Of a stretch of 64,000 nt of DNA, positions 17,599-63,175 are shown piece after piece. The position numbers and the translations under genes were made by a program. The DNA comes from Rubrobacter calidifluminis (lineage in GTDB: Bacteria > Actinomycetota > Rubrobacteria > Rubrobacterales > Rubrobacteraceae). How positions within the stretch are numbered: position 1 is the stretch's first letter; each line of letters opens with the position of its first letter. The stretch is taken from assembly GCF_028617075.1 (NCBI RefSeq), contig NZ_JAQKGV010000002.1:124001-188000 (forward strand). Direction: 5' to 3'. Below the pieces are notes generated by a model. The model was not told where the DNA came from, did not search any database, and was given only the letters and a program-made list of their open reading frames with translations.

Positions 17599-18374
17599 TC
17601 GTACGCAAGAGCAGGGCGGAGCTGGAAGCGATGCGTGAGGGTGGCGTCATAACCGCCGCGTGCATCAGGATGCTGCGTGAGCACGTGCGCCCCGGGGTGA
17701 CGACGAGGGAGCTCGACCACCTCGCCGAGGAATTCATCCGCTCGCGTGGCGGCACCCCCGAGTTCAAGGGGTACCAGGGGTTTCCGGCTTCGATCTGCAC
17801 CTCGCCGAACGACATGATCGTGCATGGTATCCCCGGACGCTACAGGTTGAAGGAGGGGGACATAATCTCGCTCGACGTCGGGGTCCGCTACGAGGGTTTC
17901 GTCACCGACAGCGCGACCACGGTGGCCGTCGGTGAGATCTCCCCCGAGGCGCAGGGGCTGCTCGACGTCACACAGGAGTGCCTCGAGGCGGCCACCCGGG
18001 AGGTCAGGCCCGGCAACCATCTGGGGGACATCGGGTATGCGATACAGGAGCTCGCGGAGGGGCGCGGCTACGGGGTGGTGCGGGACCTCGTCTCGCACGG
18101 CGTCGGGCGCGAGATGCACGAAGACCCGCAGATCCCCAACTACGGCAGGAGGGGTAGCGGTCCGCGGCTTCTGCCGGGGATGACCTTCGCCATAGAGCCC
18201 ATGATCACCCTGGGCAGCTACGAGATAAAGATCGACGAGCATGACGGGTGGTCGATCTACACCGCCGACGGTTCTCTAGCCGCCCACTACGAGCACACCA
18301 TCGCCGTCACCGACGACGGACCCTGGATCCTCACCCTCGAAGAGGGGGTCGATAGCCGCAGGAAGAGCGCGTAG
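17595..18374 (+). CDS. map: Type I methionine aminopeptidase
   Basis: 259 residues; removes initiator methionine from nascent proteins. Metal and catalytic motifs are in place: MIVHGIP histidine, DVGVRYEGFVTDSATT with two aspartates, SHGVGREMHEDPQIPN histidine, the glutamate in GMTFAIEPM and the last glutamate in AHYEHTIAV. No N-terminal zinc-finger extension. Overlaps adk by four bases. Confidence 0.98.
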   Translation: MIVRKSRAELEAMREGGVITAACIRMLREHVRPGVTTRELDHLAEEFIRSRGGTPEFKGYQGFPASICTSPNDMIVHGIPGRYRLKEGDIISLDVGVRYEGFVTDSATTVAVGEISPEAQGLLDVTQECLEAATREVRPGNHLGDIGYAIQELAEGRGYGVVRDLVSHGVGREMHEDPQIPNYGRRGSGPRLLPGMTFAIEPMITLGSYEIKIDEHDGWSIYTADGSLAAHYEHTIAVTDDGPWILTLEEGVDSRRKSA

Positions 18375-18472
18375 CGGTGCCGGGTGTAACGGTGGGATTT
18401 ACGTGGTAACATATTCGATTGGTTTCTGTCACCTTGTAACGACCCCGAGAGCATCGGAAGCGAAGGAGGTCC

Positions 18473-18694
18473 TTGGCTAAGGAAGGCGTCATAGAGGTTG
18501 AGGGAACGGTAACGGAGGCGTTGCCAAACACCCAGTTCAGGGTGGAGCTCGACAACGGGCACGAAGTTCTGGCCCACATCTCCGGCAAGATGCGGATGAA
18601 CTACATCCGGATACTCCCCGGGGACAGGGTCAAGGTGGAGCTCAGCCCGTACGACCTTAACCGGGGACGGATAACCTACAGATTCAGGAGCTGA
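18473..18694 (+). CDS. infA: Translation initiation factor IF-1
   Basis: 73-residue OB-fold factor occupying the ribosomal A site during initiation. [30 protein letters not shown] is diagnostic. TTG start, six bases after GAAGGAGGT. About 100 bases separate it from map; that gap has an AT-richer patch (TAACATATTCG) that could hold a promoter, but no clear -35 hexamer was found. Confidence 0.97.
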
Positions 18695-25504: not shown

Positions 25505-25533
25505 TTGACACTGAAACGGCCCGGCAGCATAAT
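25505..25533 (+). promoter_or_regulatory. Sigma70-type promoter upstream of the cobalamin riboswitch
   Basis: TTGACA (25505-25510) and CATAAT (25528-25533) are separated by exactly 17 bases, an almost consensus housekeeping promoter. The expected start near 25540 is just before the riboswitch, so it probably makes the nrdA-nrdB transcript. Confidence 0.85.
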
Positions 25534-25537
25534 GAGA

Positions 25538-25715
25538 GCGGCGCCGGTCGCCGGGCCCTTGGGGTCTGGCGCGAAGAGGGAATCCGGTGAGAATCCGGAG
25601 CTGCCCCGCAGCGGTGAGCGGGAACGAAAGCCGCAAGGGAGGCACTGACCCCTGATCTCCGGGGGCTGGGAAGCCGCGGCGAGTAGGTGGCCTGTGAGCC
25701 CGAAGACCTGCCGGC
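25538..25715 (+). promoter_or_regulatory. Adenosylcobalamin riboswitch controlling nrdAB
   Basis: Conserved cobalamin riboswitch elements occur in order: GGGAATCCGGTGAGAATCCG, GAGCTGCCCCGCAGCGGTGA, CACTG, CTGGGAAGCCG, and the B12 box GAGCCCGAAGACCTGCC (25696-25712). Its position before a B12-independent ribonucleotide reductase is the known arrangement in Streptomyces, where B12 switches the oxygen-dependent enzyme off while a B12-dependent class II enzyme works. The 433 bases between the O-methyltransferase and nrdA hold this element, its promoter and a terminator-like hairpin. Confidence 0.95.
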
Positions 25716-25758
25716 GCTGCCGCCTTTGGGGGCGGGTGGTGGTCTGGCCTTCGAGGGA

Positions 25759-32109: not shown

Positions 32110-32963
32110 GGTTCGTGGGATGCGCCCTGGCCTGGCGGCCGGGAGAGGCGGACAAAAAGGTCTCGGCGCTCTCGGTCCTCGACGAGCGGGGCAACATCAT
32201 AGCCAACACCTTCTGCGGGACGGTCGAGGAGATCGCGGGCGCTGTCGAGGGCTACGATGCAGGACACGGTGAGATCATCGTCGGCGTCGATGCTCCGCTC
32301 GCGGTGCCGAACGAGCGGGGAACCCGGCGGGTGGAGCGGCTGCTCTCGCGGCTTTCGCTCCCGGCTTACTCTGCGAGCCGCAAGATCTTCGACGGCCGAC
32401 CCCGCTCGGAGGAGCTGCTCGCGGCGCTGGAGAAGGTCGGTATCGAGTACACCGACTACCCGTTCAGGCGCGAGCGTGACCAGAGCGTCGTCGTCGAGGT
32501 CGACTCGGCTGCGACCCTCAAGGTGCTCTCGCTCGAGCGCAAGGGGATTTCTCAGAACGGCGACCTCTCCCGTCGGCTGGAGGAGATGAGGGAGCCGAGG
32601 TTGCGCAAGGGCAACAAGAAGGCCCGGGCGGAGGCGATAAAGGACGCGATAGACGTCCTGTGGAACACCCCGGGGCTGAGGTTGCGCACCGGGAACCTCT
32701 CGGCGGACCTGCACTCGCCCGAGAACGTGGACCTCTCGAAGCTTGAGGTGAACGAGGAGCTCTCCCACGCCGAGCTGGACCGGATCGTCGCCCTGATCGA
32801 GGCCACGCTCGCCGCCTACACGGTATACCGCCACTGGAAGGGTCGCGACGGTTCGCTCGTGCTCGGCAGCGGGGATGCGGGGGCGGTCCTCATCCCGGCG
32901 AGCGGGGCGCTGCGCGGGTGGATCTTCCGGGAGTGCAGGGCCGCCGGGATGCCCTGCGCCTGA
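32106..32963 (+). CDS. DUF429 family protein (predicted RNase H-like fold)
   Basis: 285 residues. [19 protein letters not shown]-type first strand followed by [26 protein letters not shown] and [23 protein letters not shown] are features of the DUF429 family, whose members are predicted to be nuclease-like but have no established role. TTG overlaps the glmM stop; GTG 32103 is also possible. It is followed closely by hisF, so it may be co-transcribed. No signal peptide. Confidence 0.75.
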
Positions 32964-32968
32964 GAGAG

Positions 32969-33757
32969 ATGTCCCTCTGCGTGCGCATAATCCCCTGTCT
33001 GGACGTGGACGCCGGACGCGTCGTGAAGGGCACCCGCTTCGAGAACCTGCGCGACGCGGGAGACCCGGTCGAGCTCGCCGCCCTCTACGACCGCGAGGGG
33101 GCCGACGAGATCGTCTTCTACGACATCACCGCCTCCCATCAGCGGCGCTCTACGGCCGTGGAGCTGGCCCGGCGCGCCGCCGAGGAGGTCTTCGTCCCCT
33201 ACACGATAGGCGGAGGGGTGAGGACCGTGGAGGACATGCGGGCGATGCTGCGGGCCGGGGCGGACAAGGTCTCGGTGAACAGCGCCGCCGTCAGGGACCC
33301 CGCCCTCATAAGCCGGGGCGCGGAGCGTTTCGGGAGCCAGTGTATCGTGCTGAGCGTGGACGTGAAACGCGGGGAGGGTGGCGCGGGTTGGGAGGTCTAC
33401 CTGAACGGGGGCCGGGTGAACACCGGCAGGGACGCGCTGGAGTGGCTCGCCGAGGGCGAGCGGCGGGGCGCCGGGGAGTTCGTTTTGAACAGCATGGACT
33501 CCGACGGTACCGAGACCGGATACGACCTGGATCTCATCTCCGCGGTCGCCGGGAGGACGACCCTTCCGATCGTGGCCTCCGGGGGGGCGGGGCATCCGGA
33601 TCACATGGTGGCGGCCGTCGAGGCGGGGGCGAGCGCGGTGCTGGCGGCGAGCATCTTCCACTTCGGATCGTGGAGCATACGGGATGTCAAGGAGTACCTG
33701 GCGAGAAAGGGGGTCCCGGTCCGTTTTGAGCGCGGCGGGGAACGTGAACTTCGGTGA
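32969..33757 (+). CDS. hisF: Imidazole glycerol phosphate synthase cyclase subunit
   Basis: 262 residues, (beta/alpha)8 barrel. With HisH it converts PRFAR and glutamine-derived ammonia to imidazole glycerol phosphate and AICAR. The catalytic aspartates lie in [17 protein letters not shown] and [10 protein letters not shown]. The ATG at 32969 follows GAGAG. hisH is not in the window. Its end overlaps hisIE by about 30 bases, so the two are coupled. Confidence 0.96.
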
Positions 33758-34367
33758 GAGCGGGCTGGTCCCGGTCGTGGCGCAGGACGCGAACACGGGC
33801 GAGGTCCTCACGCTCGCCTACGCCAACAGGGAGGCTCTGGAGCGTACGCTCGAGAGCGGCGAGGCGCATTACTACTCCCGATCGCGGCGGGAGCTGTGGC
33901 GAAAGGGGGCGACGAGCGGCAACACCCAGAGGGTGGTCGAGGTGCGGGTGGACTGTGACGGAGACGCGCTCCTCTACAAGGTGGAGCCGCGGGGGCCGGC
34001 GTGCCACACGGGGCAGAAGAGCTGCTTCTTCAAGGCGCTCGCAGGGGAAGGGGTGGGGCTCGCGCTCGGCGGGAAGAAGGAGGAGGACGATTTCGGGGCG
34101 ATGGTGCGCGAGCTCGCCGGGACGATAGCCCAGCGCCACCGCGAGATGCCCGAGGGGTCCTACACGGCGGAGCTCCTCCGGCAGGGCAGGGCCCGGGTCG
34201 CGCAGAAGGTGGGCGAGGAGGCGGTCGAAGTCGTGGTGGCCGCGCTTGCGGGTGAGAGGGTGGCCGAGGAGACGGCGGATCTCCTCTACCACCTGCTGGT
34301 CCTGCTCGAGGAGCAGCAGGTGGGTGTGGAGGACGTGACGCGCGTCCTGCGCGAGCGGCATGGCTAG
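33726..34367 (+). CDS. hisI: Bifunctional phosphoribosyl-AMP cyclohydrolase / phosphoribosyl-ATP pyrophosphatase
   Basis: About 213 residues, a HisI-HisE fusion (hisIE) for histidine steps two and three. The HisI half carries [45 protein letters not shown] with the zinc cysteines; the HisE half has the all-alpha [31 protein letters not shown] and [16 protein letters not shown] 33726 or GTG 33744 could be the start, both inside or at the end of hisF. The trpE ATG overlaps its stop. Confidence 0.93.
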
Positions 34368-37192: not shown

Positions 37193-38215
37193 GTGAGAGC
37201 GGGGACGCACACCTTCCTTCCCACGCGCCGGGTGCATTTCGGCGCGGGCAGCGTCGCGAGGCTCGAGGAGGAGGCGCGGCCGTACGGCCGCGCCTTCGTC
37301 GTCACCGGCCGGACGCTCGACGAAAAGACGGACCTGGTGAGGAGGGTGGAGGGGCTTCTGGGGGAGCGTCACGCCGGGACCTTCGCCGGGATGGGCGAGC
37401 ACACGCCGGGGAGCGCCGTGGAGCGGGCGGCGGAGCGGGCGCGGGAGGCCGACCTCCTAGTCGCCTTCGGCGGGGGGAGCGTCGTAGACGGGACGAAGGC
37501 GGTGGCTGCGAGAGTCGGTTACCCGCAGCAGGTCGCCGTCCCGACGACCCTCTCGGGGGCCGAGTGGGCGCACCTCGTCGGGGTGACCGACGAGGCCGCC
37601 GGGCGCAAGGCGGGGTTTGCGGACGAACGGGCGGTGCCGCCGGTGGTCATACTCGACCCCGAGCTCACGCTCGCCACGCCCGAGAGGCTCTGGCTCTCGA
37701 CCGGCATCCGGGCGCTCGACCACGCGGTGGAGGGAATCCTCTACGGGGGGGAGCACCCGGTGACCGACGTGACCGGGGTTGAGGGTGCGCGGCGTCTGGT
37801 GCGGCTTCTTCCGCGCTCGAAGCGCGAGCCCGGGGACGTGGAGGTGCGGGGTGAGCTTCAGGTCGCATCCTGGCTCGCGTACTTCGCCCCGCTGAACACC
37901 CCGATGGGGATCTCACACGTGCTCGGGCGCAGGTTGGGGGCGAGCTACGGTATACCGCACGGCATCACCTCGTGCATCACGCTCGCCCCGAGTCTGGAGG
38001 TCATGCGGGAGGGCTTCGCCTCACAAAGGTGGGAGCTTCTCTCCGGGGCGCTCGGCGGGGACCCGCCGGAGAGGGTGGCGGCGCTGGTCCGGGAGCTCGG
38101 TCTCCCGCACAGGCTGCGGGACTTCGGCGTGCCCGAAGAAGACCTGGAGAAGGTGGCTTCGGAGTTCGGGGAGCGCGCCGCCCGGGCGCTCGAGATACTG
38201 CGCCGGGCCTACTGA
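37193..38215 (+). CDS. Iron-containing alcohol dehydrogenase, maleylacetate reductase-like
   Basis: 340 residues, GTG start. The N-terminal Rossmann-like part has VAFGGGSVVDGTKAVA; the C-terminal helical part carries the metal-site residues in TGIRALDHAVEGIL and GISHVLGRRLGASYGIPHGIT. Length and THTFLPTRRVHFGAGS fit the maleylacetate reductase branch, used in aromatic ring degradation, but the substrate is not proven. A TAGAAT box lies eight bases before the GTG, so the gene might also be transcribed as a leaderless mRNA. Confidence 0.82.
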   Translation: MRAGTHTFLPTRRVHFGAGSVARLEEEARPYGRAFVVTGRTLDEKTDLVRRVEGLLGERHAGTFAGMGEHTPGSAVERAAERAREADLLVAFGGGSVVDGTKAVAARVGYPQQVAVPTTLSGAEWAHLVGVTDEAAGRKAGFADERAVPPVVILDPELTLATPERLWLSTGIRALDHAVEGILYGGEHPVTDVTGVEGARRLVRLLPRSKREPGDVEVRGELQVASWLAYFAPLNTPMGISHVLGRRLGASYGIPHGITSCITLAPSLEVMREGFASQRWELLSGALGGDPPERVAALVRELGLPHRLRDFGVPEEDLEKVASEFGERAARALEILRRAY

Positions 38216-39911: not shown

Positions 39912-40859
39912 TCAGCCTCTGGAGAGGGCGGGGAGGAGTCCTTCCAGACTCGTGCGCTGAGGTTCGAGCCACGGTGGCAGCTGGAGCCTCTCTCCGAGGT
40001 GGTCGGGGTCCTCGTCTACGGTGAAGCCGGGAGGGTCGGTTGCGATCTCGAAGAGGACGCCGCCGGGCTCGCGGAAGTAGACCGAGCGGAAGTACTTGCG
40101 GTCCATCACCGGTGTTACGTGGTACCCGAGGGAGGACAGTTCCTCCCTCAGCGCGAGCTGGCTCTCTTCGTCCGGGACCCGGAAGGCCACGTGGTGGACG
40201 GTGCCCACCCCCGTGCTGCCGCCCGGGAACCCCGCGGCCTCCGAGACGTCCACGAGCGAGCCCGGCTTCCCGTCACCGGCCGCGAACCGAACCCGGCCCT
40301 CCGTCTCGCCGACCTTCCGGAAACCGAGGTGTTCGGTGAGAAGCTCCGCGGTCTTCTCGGCACCTTCGACGGCGAGCGTGACGTGGTGCAGCCCGCGCAC
40401 CGCGCTCTCCGGTGGGACGGGACCGCCGAAGTATCCCTGCCGGGTCTCCTTCCTGCCTGCGACGAGCTCCAGACGTAACCCGTCAGGATCCTGGAAGCCG
40501 AGAACCGTGTCCCCGAACCGCTCACGCGGCTTTTCGAAGCGGACTCCATTTTCTATGAGCCTCTGTGTCCAGTATCCGAGCGAGCCCGCGGGTACGGAGA
40601 CGGCGGTCGTGATCACCTGCCCCGACCCCTTGCGTCCCTTCGGGGCGCCCGGCCAGGGGAAGAAGGTGATGATCGTGCCGGGGCTGCCGGTCCCGTCGCC
40701 GTAGTAGAGGTGGTAGGTCGTGGGGTCGTCGAAGTTCACCGTCTTCTTCACCAGACGCATCCCCAGGACCTCCGAGTAGAACAGCACGTTCTCACGCGGC
40801 GGACCGGCTATCGCGGTGAGGTGGTGTATCCCGTGGGTTACGGTCTTCGTCTCGCCCAT
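39912..40859 (-). CDS. VOC-family ring-cleaving dioxygenase (MhqO-like)
   Basis: 315 residues with two tandem glyoxalase/VOC modules: GIHHLTAIAGPPRENVLFYSEVLGMRLVKKTVNFDDPTTYHLYYGD and VRGLHHVTLAVEGAEKTAELLTEHLGF. Metal ligand histidines in HHLTAI and VHHVAFRV and a glutamate in GVLFEIATDPPGF are visible. Related B. subtilis proteins (MhqO) act in quinone and catechol detoxification. ATG lies ten bases downstream of the restored end of the PPOX gene, so likely one operon with it, DoxX and MarR. Confidence 0.88.
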   Translation of the reverse strand: MGETKTVTHGIHHLTAIAGPPRENVLFYSEVLGMRLVKKTVNFDDPTTYHLYYGDGTGSPGTIITFFPWPGAPKGRKGSGQVITTAVSVPAGSLGYWTQRLIENGVRFEKPRERFGDTVLGFQDPDGLRLELVAGRKETRQGYFGGPVPPESAVRGLHHVTLAVEGAEKTAELLTEHLGFRKVGETEGRVRFAAGDGKPGSLVDVSEAAGFPGGSTGVGTVHHVAFRVPDEESQLALREELSSLGYHVTPVMDRKYFRSVYFREPGGVLFEIATDPPGFTVDEDPDHLGERLQLPPWLEPQRTSLEGLLPALSRG

Positions 40860-40869
40860 CGCACCGCCT

Positions 40870-41279
40870 TCAGCCCATGTGGGTGGTGTGCTCGGGACGG
40901 ACGTAGATTATCACCCGCTCCTCTCCCGGCCGCCGGTCGGGGTATTCGTCCACCCGAGATACTTCTTGGCCATCGCGTTTATGAAGTCGAAGTTCGGATC
41001 GTCCTCGATGCGCTCCACCACACCGCGTACCTCGAGGTAGCGGTAAGGGTTCTCGGGATCGACGATCGAGAGGGCTACCCTCGGGTCGCGCCTGAGGTTG
41101 CGGTACTTCTGGCGCGTCTTGGTCTGGCTGAACTTTATGTACTCGCCGTCCCAGTCGAACCACACCGGGTTGCTCTGCGGCTCGCCTTTGGGACCCACGG
41201 TCGCCACGTGGGCCAGCGCCTTGCTCCTGAGCAGATCCTCGAACTTATGCGGGATGACGGAGGAAGTCTTCTCGCTCAA
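40870..41279 (-). pseudogene. PPOX-class F420/flavin-dependent oxidoreductase, C-terminal frameshift
   Basis: The first 107 or so residues (LRSKALAHVATVGPKGEPQSNPVWFDWDG, RVALSIVDPENPYRYLEVRG, INAMAKKYLG) are a clear split-barrel PPOX-type enzyme. After KKYLG the frame runs out of register (WTNTPTGG and a stop at 40911). The family tail VDEYPDRRPGEERVIIYVRPEH is encoded in the next frame and ends at 40870. A single base is missing at or near the CCC run 40953-40955 (GGG on the coding strand). Either a real mutation or an assembly error; the truncated product could retain part of its function. TTG start, directly after the doxX stop. Confidence 0.85.
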
Positions 41280-41783
41280 CTACTCTCCCTCCTCCTGTAT
41301 CTCTCTCTCGCTCTCCTGAACGGCTTTCGCGACGATAGCGAGCGCGACCACGAGACCGACCGGCCCCACCCAGCCGGGCAGCCGGATGCCGAAGAGCCGG
41401 TCCAGAGAGTACCTGTCGGGTCCGGAGAGCATGAGCGCAAGCGCGATCGCCATGTTGGTGAGCGGAAGCTCCGCACCGCCCTCCGTCGCCCAGATCGGCT
41501 TGTTCCAGTGCACCTTGCGCGCCGCCATCGCCATCGCCCCGATGATCCCGAGCGGCCCCACCGGGTGGAAGAGCCCGAGCGCGGTGAGCACCCCGCCACC
41601 GAACTCCGAGGCACCGCCCACGAACGCCCAGCGCTCGGCGGGTTTGAGGTTGAGCGTCTCCATCATACCCCTGGTTCCCTCGGGGCCGGGGCCCCCGAAC
41701 CAACCGAAGAGCTTCTGCCCCCCGTGACCGGCGAGGAGTGTCCCCGCAGTACCCCTCAGCACAAGCTGCGAAAGATCTTTCAC
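41280..41783 (-). CDS. DoxX-family membrane protein
   Basis: 167 residues with four hydrophobic segments. LRGTAGTLLAGHGGQKLFGWFGGPGPEGTRGMMETL and PAERWAFVGGASEFGGGVLTALGLF fit the DoxX/MhqP-like family found in quinone and redox stress operons. Stop codon abuts the TTG start of the PPOX gene (TAGTTG). Located in the cytoplasmic membrane. Molecular function of the family is not settled. Confidence 0.88.
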   Translation of the reverse strand: MKDLSQLVLRGTAGTLLAGHGGQKLFGWFGGPGPEGTRGMMETLNLKPAERWAFVGGASEFGGGVLTALGLFHPVGPLGIIGAMAMAARKVHWNKPIWATEGGAELPLTNMAIALALMLSGPDRYSLDRLFGIRLPGWVGPVGLVVALAIVAKAVQESEREIQEEGE

Positions 41784-41847
41784 TACCGACCTCCCTTTCC
41801 TCTCTGGATCGTCTCTGGATCGCTACACACAGACTGCCCGACAGCCG

Positions 41848-42306
41848 CTACTCGTTAACGCCCGTCACCCCCTCCAGGTTGCCCCGTACCCTCTCCAGAA
41901 GGCCTCGCAGAAGAGCCCTCTCTTCGCTGCTCAGACCGTCGAGCGCCTCCTGCTCGACCTGCTCCCAGCAGCGGAAGACGCGTTCCACCGCACTCCGTCC
42001 TCGCCCGGACAGATACACCCGGAAGCTGCGCGCATCCTCGGGGTCCCTCCGCCTCTCGACGAACCCGCAGCGCTCCAGACGCTGGACCATCCGGGTCGCC
42101 GTCGGCGGTTCCACCCCAAGCCTCCCGGCCAGCTCGCATACCCGCAGACCGTCCTCCCGCCACAGCTCCGCCAGTACCAGCTCCTGACCCGGGTGCAGTC
42201 CCAGCGCCGCCAGCTCACGCCCGACCCTGCCCCGGTGAGCCCTGCTCACCCGGGCCAGCAGATGCCCGGTGGTCTCCCTGATCTCTTCTCCGCTTCCGCG
42301 GTTCAC
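41848..42306 (-). CDS. MarR-family transcriptional regulator
   Basis: 152 residues from GTG 42306, which is eight bases after GGGAG. Winged-helix core: LHPGQELVLAELWREDGLRVCELAGRLGVEPPTATRMVQRLERCGFVERRRDPEDARSFRVYLS. Upstream ATG at 42348 would place the operator inside the coding region. It heads the minus-strand group with doxX, the PPOX gene and the VOC dioxygenase, and probably represses them together with itself in response to quinones or electrophiles (inference by analogy with MhqR). Confidence 0.9.
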   Translation of the reverse strand: MNRGSGEEIRETTGHLLARVSRAHRGRVGRELAALGLHPGQELVLAELWREDGLRVCELAGRLGVEPPTATRMVQRLERCGFVERRRDPEDARSFRVYLSGRGRSAVERVFRCWEQVEQEALDGLSSEERALLRGLLERVRGNLEGVTGVNE

Positions 42307-42332
42307 TCTCAGACTCCCGCCAGACCAATTAG

Positions 42333-42373
42333 TTAGCCGGCTAAACATCTAACACGGGAGGGATGTTTGTCAA
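42333..42373 (-). promoter_or_regulatory. marR promoter with palindromic operator
   Basis: On the minus strand TTGACA (complement of 42368-42373) and TAGATG (complement of 42346-42351) are spaced by 16 bases. The perfect palindrome TTAGCCGGCTAA (42333-42344) adjoins the -10 element, a typical position for MarR autorepression. Confidence 0.6.
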
Positions 42374-42971: not shown

Positions 42972-44606
42972 CTATCCGGTGGTTGTGTCTTCGGTCATGA
43001 ACACCTGATGATCTTTGCGCCGGTTGTCCACGGCGAGGCAGCCCAGGGCGGCGAGCAGGACGACGGCTATCGGGAGCACCATCGTCGGGTGCATCGCGTC
43101 CACGAAGCCGTGGGTGAAGACGCTGTGGGCGGCGCTCTCTATGCGGTGAGCGAGCTGCGGGGGTACGCTCCGCGGTAGGTGCGTCCCGCCTCCCGTCTGG
43201 CCGGCTCCCACCTCGAAGCCTCTCTTCGCGGCGTGACCGAAACCCGCCACGAAGCGGTCGCGGACCTGCGGCGGGAGCTGCGAGGAGCGGCTTGTGGCCT
43301 GGTCGTGGAGGGCTGAGGCGAGGCGGTTCTGAAGGAGGGCGCCGACGGCTGCGCCGGCGATGACGCCGCCGAGCTCCTGGGTGGTGTTGAGCACCCCGGA
43401 TGCCGCACCTGCGAGCTCGGGCCTGAGGTTCCGGGTAGCGATGCTGTAGACCGGGCCCCAGACGCAGGCGAGCCCTGCGCCGCTCGCGATCAGGCCGGGC
43501 AGGAAGATCCAGCGGGGGGAGCCTGCGTGGGCGACCCAGTCTATGTAGCCCACTCCGGAGGCGAAGACCGGGAGGCCGAAGAGGAGGACGTACTTGCCGC
43601 CCATCCTGTCTGCGAGGATGCCAGCGAAGGGGGAGACGAGCATCATCGCGAGAGGTTGCGGCGCTATGGTGAGCCCGGCCGCGAGCGCGCTGTAGCCCAG
43701 GACCGACTGCAGGTAGATCGTCAGGGGGAGGTAGACGCCGAGCATCGCGAAGCCTATCGCCGCCAGGACGAGCGTCATCAGGGTGAAGTTGCGGTCCCTG
43801 AAGACGGCGAAGGGTACGAGCGGCTCGCTGTTCTGGTGGAAGCGCTGGTGGATGAGGAAGATGGCGAGGAGAGACGCGCCCGCGCAGATGATCTCGGGTA
43901 TGGTTATGAAAGAGTAGACCTTCCCCCAGTCGTGGCGCTCGCCTTCGATGAGGCCGAAGACGACGCCGAGGAGTCCGGCGGTGGCTAGGAGGACTCCGGT
44001 GAGGTCGAGCCGGTGGCGGCGTCCGGGCCGGAGGTCGGGGACGAGGGCGAAGGCGAGGGCGATGACGGCGAGGCCCACGGGCACATTGACGTAGAAGATC
44101 CAACGCCACCCCAGATGGGTGACGATGAAGCCGCCCAAGGTCGGCCCGGCGAGTACTGCGAGCCCACTCACTATGCCGTTTAGAGCGAAGACGGCCCCGC
44201 GCTGTCCGGGCGGGAAGAGGCTGGTCATGAGGGGGAGACCCTGCGGGGCCAGGAGCGCGGCCCCGAGCCCCTGCAGCGCGCGGGCGGCGATGAGCTGGGC
44301 CGGGTCCCGGGCGAGGCCGCTTGCGACCGAGGCCGCGGTGAAGAGGGCGATGCCCGCGATGAACAGGTTGCGCGGCCCGAGGATATCGCCGAGCCTTCCG
44401 GCGGTGATGAGCAGCACCGCGTAGAGCAGGCTGTAGGCGTTGAGGACCCACAGAACCTCATCGAGCGAGGCCCCGATGCCGTCTATGATCCTCGGTATGG
44501 CGATGTTGACGATGGTCAGGTCGAGCAACGTCATGAAGAGGCCCAGAACGAGCACCGCCATCACCGCCCAGCGGTTGCCCCGCACCCGGCCTTTCTGGTC
44601 AGACAT
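42972..44606 (-). CDS. MFS multidrug exporter, DHA2 (EmrB/QacA) family
   Basis: About 544 residues with 14 hydrophobic segments. Motifs: VLGLFMTLLDLTIVNIAIPRI (DHA2 motif D1), WVLNAYSLLYAVLLITAGRLGDILGPR (motif A), RALQGLGAALLAP and LAGPTLGGFIVTHLGWRWIFYVNVPVG (motif C). Proton-driven drug or toxin efflux in the cytoplasmic membrane. ATG 44606 (MSDQKGRVRGNRW) is chosen; ATG 44642 would add 12 residues. Substrate unknown; neighbours suggest electrophiles or aromatics. Confidence 0.92.
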   Translation of the reverse strand: MSDQKGRVRGNRWAVMAVLVLGLFMTLLDLTIVNIAIPRIIDGIGASLDEVLWVLNAYSLLYAVLLITAGRLGDILGPRNLFIAGIALFTAASVASGLARDPAQLIAARALQGLGAALLAPQGLPLMTSLFPPGQRGAVFALNGIVSGLAVLAGPTLGGFIVTHLGWRWIFYVNVPVGLAVIALAFALVPDLRPGRRHRLDLTGVLLATAGLLGVVFGLIEGERHDWGKVYSFITIPEIICAGASLLAIFLIHQRFHQNSEPLVPFAVFRDRNFTLMTLVLAAIGFAMLGVYLPLTIYLQSVLGYSALAAGLTIAPQPLAMMLVSPFAGILADRMGGKYVLLFGLPVFASGVGYIDWVAHAGSPRWIFLPGLIASGAGLACVWGPVYSIATRNLRPELAGAASGVLNTTQELGGVIAGAAVGALLQNRLASALHDQATSRSSQLPPQVRDRFVAGFGHAAKRGFEVGAGQTGGGTHLPRSVPPQLAHRIESAAHSVFTHGFVDAMHPTMVLPIAVVLLAALGCLAVDNRRKDHQVFMTEDTTTG

Positions 44607-44732
44607 CTCTCTGCTGGCTCCTTCCTGATGAATGGAGTTCATCTGCTACCCTGCGGAGCCTGCGACCTGCTATGCTTGAGGGTACGCACGACCCCGACGG
44701 TCCGCTCCGCAGGGCTGTTACGGGGAACGTCC

Positions 44733-44766
44733 GGCCCCGGCGGGTGTGGCCGCACCCGCCGGGGCC
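44733..44766. terminator. Strong hairpin between the exporter and DDN-type reductase genes
   Basis: A 14-bp perfect stem, GGCCCCGGCGGGTG (44733-44746) with CACCCGCCGGGGCC (44753-44766), and a six-base loop TGGCCG. It lies 12 bases after the reductase stop on the minus strand and most likely ends that transcript. No good T-run is present, but the stem is very stable. Confidence 0.65.
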
Positions 44767-44777
44767 TCTCTGTCTAC

Positions 44778-45251
44778 TCAAACCATCTTTCCTCCCTCGA
44801 TCCTGAATACCGGGCACCGCGGCGCCAGGCCCGCGAACTCCTCCGGAGACCCGGAGATGCCGTACAGGCGCCGGAAGAACGTTACGCCGCCCGGCACCTT
44901 CTCCGGGAACTCCCTGAGGATGGGGACGCGCTCCTCGACGGGCAGCTCGACCAGCCTCACGCGCTCCTCGCGGCGCCCGCGGGAGAGGATCGCCCACCCC
45001 GCCCTTCGGGCATTCTCCACCCAATCCGCCTCCCCGGTGCCGGCGACCACGTAGCGCCGGCCGTCCACCACCAGCAGGGAGACCGGCGTCGTGCGCATCC
45101 TGCCGCTCCTGCGGCCCGGGACCGAGATCAGACACATCGGCCCAACCACCAATCCCAGCCGCTGCAGAAAAGCGACCACCGGGTTGACCAGGCTCAACCA
45201 GCCGGGCAACCCCAGCTCCTCCAGACGCCTCCTCTTCCCGCTGCCCGCCAT
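44778..45251 (-). CDS. Deazaflavin (F420)-dependent nitroreductase/quinone reductase family protein (DDN-like)
   Basis: 157 residues. VVGPMCLISVPGRRSGRMRTTPVSLLVVDGRRYVVAGTGEADWVENARRAGWAIL fits the DDN split-barrel family (L-T-T-x-G-RxSG-x-R-x-TPL pattern, W-N-A segment). Members use reduced F420 to reduce quinones or nitro compounds. Ribosome binding site GGAAGGAGG. Divergent from the MarR-DUF4097 regulator, sharing an AT-rich control region, so probably its target. Cofactor use is inferred from family. Confidence 0.85.
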   Translation of the reverse strand: MAGSGKRRRLEELGLPGWLSLVNPVVAFLQRLGLVVGPMCLISVPGRRSGRMRTTPVSLLVVDGRRYVVAGTGEADWVENARRAGWAILSRGRREERVRLVELPVEERVPILREFPEKVPGGVTFFRRLYGISGSPEEFAGLAPRCPVFRIEGGKMV

Positions 45252-45288
45252 CAGCCTCCTTCCGTCACCGTGCTACACTGCAATAAGT

Positions 45289-61624: not shown

Positions 61625-63175
61625 ATGTCGCTCAACCTGACGGTAATGCTGGACGAGAGCGCGAAGGTGAGGCCGCAGAAGCCCGCACTCGTCCTCGGGG
61701 AGGAGAAGGTCACCTACGCCGCTTTGCGCGAGGCGTCGATGCGCTTCGCCGCCGCGCTGTCCTCGCTCGGGATCGAGCCCGGGGACAGGGTCGCGATCAT
61801 GGTGCCAAACGTCCCCCAGTTCGCCATCGCCTACTACGGCATCCTGCGAGCCGGGGCGGTGGTCGTCCCGCTGAACGTGCTCCTGCAGGGCCCAGAGGTC
61901 GCCTACCACCTGGGGGATTCCGGGGCGAAGGTGCTCGTCGCTTGGGATGGGTTCCTGGAGGCGGCCGGAAGGGGATACGAGGAGGCCTCCGGCTGCGGGC
62001 ACCTGATCGTGGCGGGGGAGAAGGAGGAGGTGCCCGAGGGGGCGCTCGGCTTCAGGGAGCTTCTGGAACAGAACCCGCCGGAGTTCGAGACCGTGCAGAC
62101 GATGCCCGACGACACGGCGGTCATCATCTACACCAGCGGGACCACCGGTCGGCCGAAAGGGGCCGAGCTCTCCCACTTCAACCTCTTCTACAACGCGGTG
62201 TGCAACGCGGACAAGCTCGTTCAGACCAGCGAGGAGGACGCCGGGATCGCCGCACTCCCGCTCTTTCACATCTTCGGGCAGACCGCGGTCCTCAACACCT
62301 TCGTCTACAGCGGGAACACGATCACGATGATCCCGCGCTTCGAGCCCGAGGCGGTGCTCGGTGCGATAGAGCGCGACCGCATCACCATCTTCACCGGGGT
62401 GCCCACGATGTACCAGTACCTGCTGCACCACCCGGCTGCGGACGCACACGACACCTCCTCGCTCAGGCTCGGGATCTCCGGCGGGGCCTCGATGCCGGTC
62501 GAGGTGTTGAGGAGGTTCGAGGAGAAGTTCGGGATCACGATACTCGAGGGCTACGGCCTCTCCGAGACGAGCCCGGTCGTCTGCTTCAACCGCTCCGCCG
62601 AAGAGCGCAAGGTCGGCTCCATAGGGCTTCCGATCTGGGGGATCGAGGCGAAGGTCGTAGACGAGGACGACCGCGAGGTGCCCCGCGGCGAGACCGGGGA
62701 GCTCGTGGTGCGCGGGCACGCCATCATGAAGGGCTACTACGGGAGGCCAAAGGAGACCGCGGAGGCGATGCGCGGCGGCTGGTTCCACACCGGCGATCTG
62801 GCCAGGATGGACGAGGACGGCTACATCTTCATCGTCGACCGCAAGAAGGACATGATCGTGCGCGGTGGTTACAACGTCTACCCGCGCGAGGTCGAGGAGG
62901 CGATCTACGAGCACCCGGCGGTCGCCGAGGTCGCCGTGGTCGGCGTCCCGCACGAGGAGCTCGGCGAGGAGGTCGTCGCCGTGGTCGTCCCGAAGGAGGG
63001 GGCGAGGGTGGAAGAGGAGGAGATCATAGCCTTCGCCCGCGAGCGGGTTGCCAGATACAAGTACCCCCGCCACGTCGTCTTCGTCGACGAGCTGCCCAAG
63101 AACGCAACCGGGAAGATACTCAAGCGCGAGCTCGACCCGGAGAGGCTCGGCCCCGAGGTTAGACGCAGCCGGTGA
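61625..63175 (+). CDS. Acyl-CoA synthetase (AMP-forming), long-chain fatty acid CoA ligase-like
   Basis: 516 residues. ATP/AMP-binding motif IIYTSGTTGRPKGAELSHFN, YGLSETSPVVCFNRS, GWFHTGDLARMDEDGYIFIVDRKKDMIVRGGYNVYPREVEE and the lysine in PKNATGKILKRELDP are complete. Activates a carboxylic acid for the operon. No thiolase or acetyl-CoA acyltransferase is in the window, so the thiolytic step must come from elsewhere. Confidence 0.93.
   Translation: MSLNLTVMLDESAKVRPQKPALVLGEEKVTYAALREASMRFAAALSSLGIEPGDRVAIMVPNVPQFAIAYYGILRAGAVVVPLNVLLQGPEVAYHLGDSGAKVLVAWDGFLEAAGRGYEEASGCGHLIVAGEKEEVPEGALGFRELLEQNPPEFETVQTMPDDTAVIIYTSGTTGRPKGAELSHFNLFYNAVCNADKLVQTSEEDAGIAALPLFHIFGQTAVLNTFVYSGNTITMIPRFEPEAVLGAIERDRITIFTGVPTMYQYLLHHPAADAHDTSSLRLGISGGASMPVEVLRRFEEKFGITILEGYGLSETSPVVCFNRSAEERKVGSIGLPIWGIEAKVVDEDDREVPRGETGELVVRGHAIMKGYYGRPKETAEAMRGGWFHTGDLARMDEDGYIFIVDRKKDMIVRGGYNVYPREVEEAIYEHPAVAEVAVVGVPHEELGEEVVAVVVPKEGARVEEEEIIAFARERVARYKYPRHVVFVDELPKNATGKILKRELDPERLGPEVRRSR

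Follow-up and report, generated by a model that had tools for sequence, protein, structure and literature searches.

A one-base frameshift in an Rv1155-type PPOX oxidoreductase gene of Rubrobacter calidifluminis that is intact in two same-genus genomes

The broken gene and its family

MSMEG_3380 (PDB 3f7e), an FDOR-B F420H2-dependent reductase, is a homodimeric split barrel whose pocket residues are listed in the accessible portion of PMC3034190. A PDB sequence search with an intact relative of the gene studied here gave MSMEG_3380 as the best match (E 1.5e-33), with 46% identity to the intact relative's model. The copy in the window, which is the whole stretch of 64,000 nucleotides of R. calidifluminis DNA that was analysed, lacks the C-terminal strand of MSMEG_3380 and encodes a product of 122 aa, in which 109 native residues are followed by 13 aberrant ones. 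This product scored 122.9 bits against TIGR03618 (Rv1155-type F420-dependent PPOX class oxidoreductase; cut-off 79.05) and 70.4 bits against PF01243 (cut-off 28.1), bearing out the family named in the first-pass annotation, PPOX/F420 oxidoreductase. It shares positions 2–101 of the 127 in the TIGR03618 profile, the C-terminal part of which is absent from the product. The gene is a broken member of the TIGR03618/FDOR-B F420-dependent PPOX oxidoreductases. It also resembles young frameshifted bacterial pseudogenes, with a frame broken here by a one-base frameshift and intact in close relatives, whereas its lesion, unlike those of young pseudogenes generally, is known from a single genome record. 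No paper dealing with the Rubrobacter gene turned up in literature searches, and we do not claim that none exists.

The lesion was located by alignment to G001 and G002, two same-genus genomes, and the features of the locus are as follows.

39912–40859, minus strand: VOC/glyoxalase-superfamily protein, 315 aa, downstream neighbour (ORF list, profile match)
40870–40955, minus strand: out-of-frame native C-terminal tail, DNA identical to G001 and G002 (alignment)
40911–41279, minus strand: PPOX/F420 oxidoreductase ORF, 122 aa, TTG start (ORF list of the window, profile matches, alignment to relatives)
40953–40955, minus strand: one-base length difference in a short run, G on the coding strand and C on the plus strand (alignment to G001 and G002)
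41280–41783, minus strand: DoxX-family protein, 167 aa, upstream neighbour, its stop directly adjoining the PPOX start (ORF list, profile match)
41848–42348, minus strand: MarR-family regulator, upstream of DoxX (ORF list, profile match)

The native tail, ...VDEYPDRRPGEERVIIYVRPEHTTHMG, sits in the second frame and ends at 40870 on the minus strand. This frame matches residues 110–136 of the G001 protein at 100%, so the tail match is beyond chance. The actual stop at 40911 falls 41 bases short of the relatives' stop at 40870, and the gap to the ATG of the VOC gene (40859) is 51 bases with the actual stop and 10 bases with that of the relatives. The first-pass annotation had described a PPOX frame broken by a frameshift, with its tail in the next frame, a base missing at the CCC run and a restored frame ending ten bases before the next start, and each of these points holds in the comparison with G001 and G002, both of which are one base longer at the run.

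The MarR, DoxX, PPOX and VOC genes all lie on one strand. A VOC match was present on the same strand in 15 of 43 loci and a DoxX match in 6 of 43 (limited flanks, duplicates included), so this gene order is common to some relatives only. After the VOC gene comes a gene with a DAC domain (PF02457; 39135–39728, minus strand), whose best NCBIfam match, diadenylate cyclase DacZ, is below the cut-off and which has a match in 6 of the 43 loci (duplicates included). Upstream of the DoxX gene is an 11-base tandem duplication (41801–41822), of which G001 has one copy fewer. The aligned contigs of G001 and G002 lack a segment of about 2.25 kb (43012–45268) that holds the greater part of a DHA2-type MFS efflux gene (42972–44642, minus strand) and an ORF at 44778–45251 (minus strand), which we take to resemble a deazaflavin-type nitroreductase. 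An Rfam scan of the window at gathering scores gave one match, a cobalamin riboswitch on the plus strand at 25528–25729 (113.3 bits), far from the lesion, and a tRNA scan of the window gave no match.

The lesion in comparison with related genomes

G001 and G002 were the two same-genus genomes among those searched, and the PPOX gene is intact in both as a 136-aa frame. They amount to about one comparison, because they are 99.5% identical over the compared 29.5-kb contig. A blastn alignment of 530 bases around the PPOX gene to G001 and G002 gave 95.5–95.9% identity with three gap columns in 532, two of which lie in the DoxX gene and one inside the PPOX gene, at the G/C run, where the window is a single base shorter than both relatives. 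From this run to the relatives' stop, the window DNA is identical to both. Elsewhere in the gene, six further aligned base differences from G002 result in two amino-acid changes. Six differences in about 408 bases are fewer than the 3.7% divergence of the longest piece shared with G002 would give, which argues that the gene was constrained until very recent times. The identity of the window contig to G001 is 95.6% in the longest aligned piece, of 71.8 kb, and 91–98% across the six pieces longer than 5 kb.

Among 60 related genomes searched, 46 give some match to the PPOX protein. Of the 35 genomes from this genus or family, 21 have a match of at least 63% identity (the one in G007 partial), a count on which the incompleteness of many of these assemblies bears. 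With only 21 of 35 showing such a match, loss of the gene looks tolerable. We searched 29 loci (L007–L035) by tblastn with the intact G002 protein, and all 20 close orthologues (L007–L026, at least 62% identity) stay in one frame up to residue 135 or 136, the match in L024 starting at query residue 24. An orthologue in G007 (L027, 1447–1710), whose assembly is 77% complete, has a 38-residue internal gap, which reflects either damage to a second copy or faulty assembly. Frames were also read at 36 of 42 loci (L036–L070 and L074; left out were L071, L072, L073, L075, L076 and L077), and all 36 run to a stop after 129–161 residues, none ending early. The two sets overlap, and the counts are not independent because several loci stand in both; L036 (Rubrobacteraceae bacterium isolate HOT.MB2.74), for example, is the same contig as that of G002 and is one place with L007, taken twice.

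The identity to G001 and G002 past the break and the single frame of all 20 close orthologues lead us to read the frameshift, from sequence comparison, as either the recent, derived loss of one base or a slip in sequencing or assembly. The perfect conservation of the tail would also be expected if ribosomal frameshifting or transcript slippage restored part of the full-length protein. However, the close orthologues all keep one frame, which leaves no conserved site for recoding, and the lesion reads CTC GGG TGG, presumably not a classical slippery heptamer, with a three-base G run that we take to be short for transcript slippage. We regard recoding as exceedingly improbable.

Predicted consequence of the truncation

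To compare the intact and broken forms, AlphaFold2 models were built for an intact orthologue, with an alignment of 25 relatives, and for the window product, with one of 26 relatives. The intact model (pLDDT 94.7, pTM 0.87) has its last strand at 122–135. This strand is missing from the window model (pLDDT 88.3, pTM 0.76), which does not show a complete split-barrel fold with a C-terminal strand; the long strand 77–93 of the intact model is shortened to 77–87, and the pLDDT drops to 60 and 48 in the last two blocks. The best PDB match of both models is MSMEG_3380 (3f7e), with a TM score by query length of 0.83 for the intact model and of 0.85 for the window model, the latter having been built with an alignment of intact relatives. 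The match of the window model does not speak for gross misfolding, and some folding may be possible.

Past the break, the product loses P129, which is invariant among the 26 aligned relatives, and Y113, P114, P118, G119 and R122, each at least 90% conserved among them. On a phmmer alignment, the break lies downstream of every cofactor-groove position of MSMEG_3380 given in the accessible part of PMC3034190, and just ahead of L106, a pocket residue from its list; this mapping assumes that the numbering in that source equals chain position, which agrees at M34 and W35. The upstream position of the groove would suit a functional short variant of 122 aa. Against such a variant stand the loss of the six conserved residues and, in the predicted model, of the last barrel strand, as well as the lack of any early end among the 36 frames and the 20 close orthologues, with L027 ambiguous because of its internal gap. 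We consider a functional short variant extremely unlikely, and it is highly unlikely that a working short form, or a tail made by low-level frameshifting, lets the one-base loss tune rather than kill the enzyme. Even taken together, recoding and a functional short form are very unlikely. The 122-aa product is probably non-functional, as it has lost near-invariant residues and the final strand of the barrel.

The cofactor of the family is probably made by the host. The genome containing the window (3.09 Mb, 54 contigs) encodes CofD (326.5 bits, cut-off 257.45) and CofE (285.5 bits, cut-off 180.65), the two F420 pathway steps covered by our profile search; in the CofD control, three of six were over the cut-off, and E. 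coli, Thermotoga and Lactococcus also matched, apparently below it. No close paralogue able to take over was seen in the window's genome, where the other two matches are 39% and 34% identical.

Recent loss or an error in the record

The choice between recent inactivation and sequencing error, posed by the first-pass annotation, is still the right pair of alternatives now that intact orthologues are known from two same-genus genomes. If the record is one base short in a short homopolymer, the organism's gene is intact. Several points speak for an error: the lesion is a single base of a G/C run, conservation is good across the remainder of the gene, the tail matches G001 and G002 at every base, as a working gene would, and further decay was not seen in the gene; a very recent mutation, however, would equally show no decay.

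The frequency of frameshifts in the assembly also bears on this alternative. We compared two contig stretches of the window's genome (128.7 and 117.4 kb aligned) with G001 only and listed indels in 171 putative coding ORFs with a coding-type substitution pattern, 98 on G001 contig C5 (87.0 kb) and 73 on C6 (68.9 kb), about 156 kb in all. The automatic screen gave a net shift in 14 of the 171 ORFs (9 on C5 and 5 on C6), PPOX included. Ten were dropped because tblastn finds their counterparts open in a single frame as far as the end, starting either among the first residues or at the probable true start, with the shift confined to a wrongly assigned 5' extension or to the extreme end: 65042–65638, 67391–67786, 67783–68502, 76521–77060, 89666–92563 and 149755–150900 on C5, and 238–672, 32319–34031, 37402–38031 and 99402–100613 on C6. 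Also rejected were 12128–13687 on C6, whose stops and shift are confined to a long 5' part ahead of the conserved protein, and 61387–62343 on C5, which overlaps an opposite-strand ORF of 395 aa that looks like a real protein. The 100-aa ORF 99763–100065 on C5 (window about 18290–18588, minus strand) continues in a second frame, with 95% and 97% identity and a one-base difference near 18393 in the window; it is probably spurious, judged from composition, and stands as doubtful. Apart from this ORF, no recognisable gene among the 171 other than PPOX has an interior frameshift.

An in-frame stop or changed length was flagged in 9 of the 98 C5 ORFs of G001, and in the reverse direction (frameshifts in G001, C5 stretch only) in 8 of 99 ORFs, PPOX included in both. 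Among the flagged ORFs, of which those of the forward direction were considered individually, 123467–124372 and 62542–62784 overlap likelier opposite-strand ORFs, and most of the remaining ones differ by 9–15 residues at one end. The compared stretches are not riddled with indels, because the 171 ORFs show no excess of interior frameshifts. This argues against frequent indel errors only, and the screen does not separate one true frameshift from one isolated error. We give an error in the record a chance somewhat short of even.

A real recent loss of one base in this lineage is the reading that we favour, with slightly better than even confidence, although short G runs are also prone to sequencing slips. 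By this account, a conserved FDOR-B/Rv1155-type F420-dependent oxidoreductase gene would recently have lost one base in its short G run, and its product, without the last split-barrel strand, would not be a working enzyme. The gene would be a young pseudogene among intact neighbours, and the lost gene is probably dispensable. Translational coupling to the VOC gene may be weakened, since 51 bases instead of 10 now separate the PPOX stop from it.

The locus is an ordinary bacterial enzyme gene with a frameshift, and we saw no sign of anything more unusual. For annotation, the PPOX gene should carry a frameshifted label, and F420-dependent activity of this gene is not to be assumed for the strain. 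If the loss is real, it would be a small example of how a gene with a patchy distribution in its family breaks while its neighbours remain in place.
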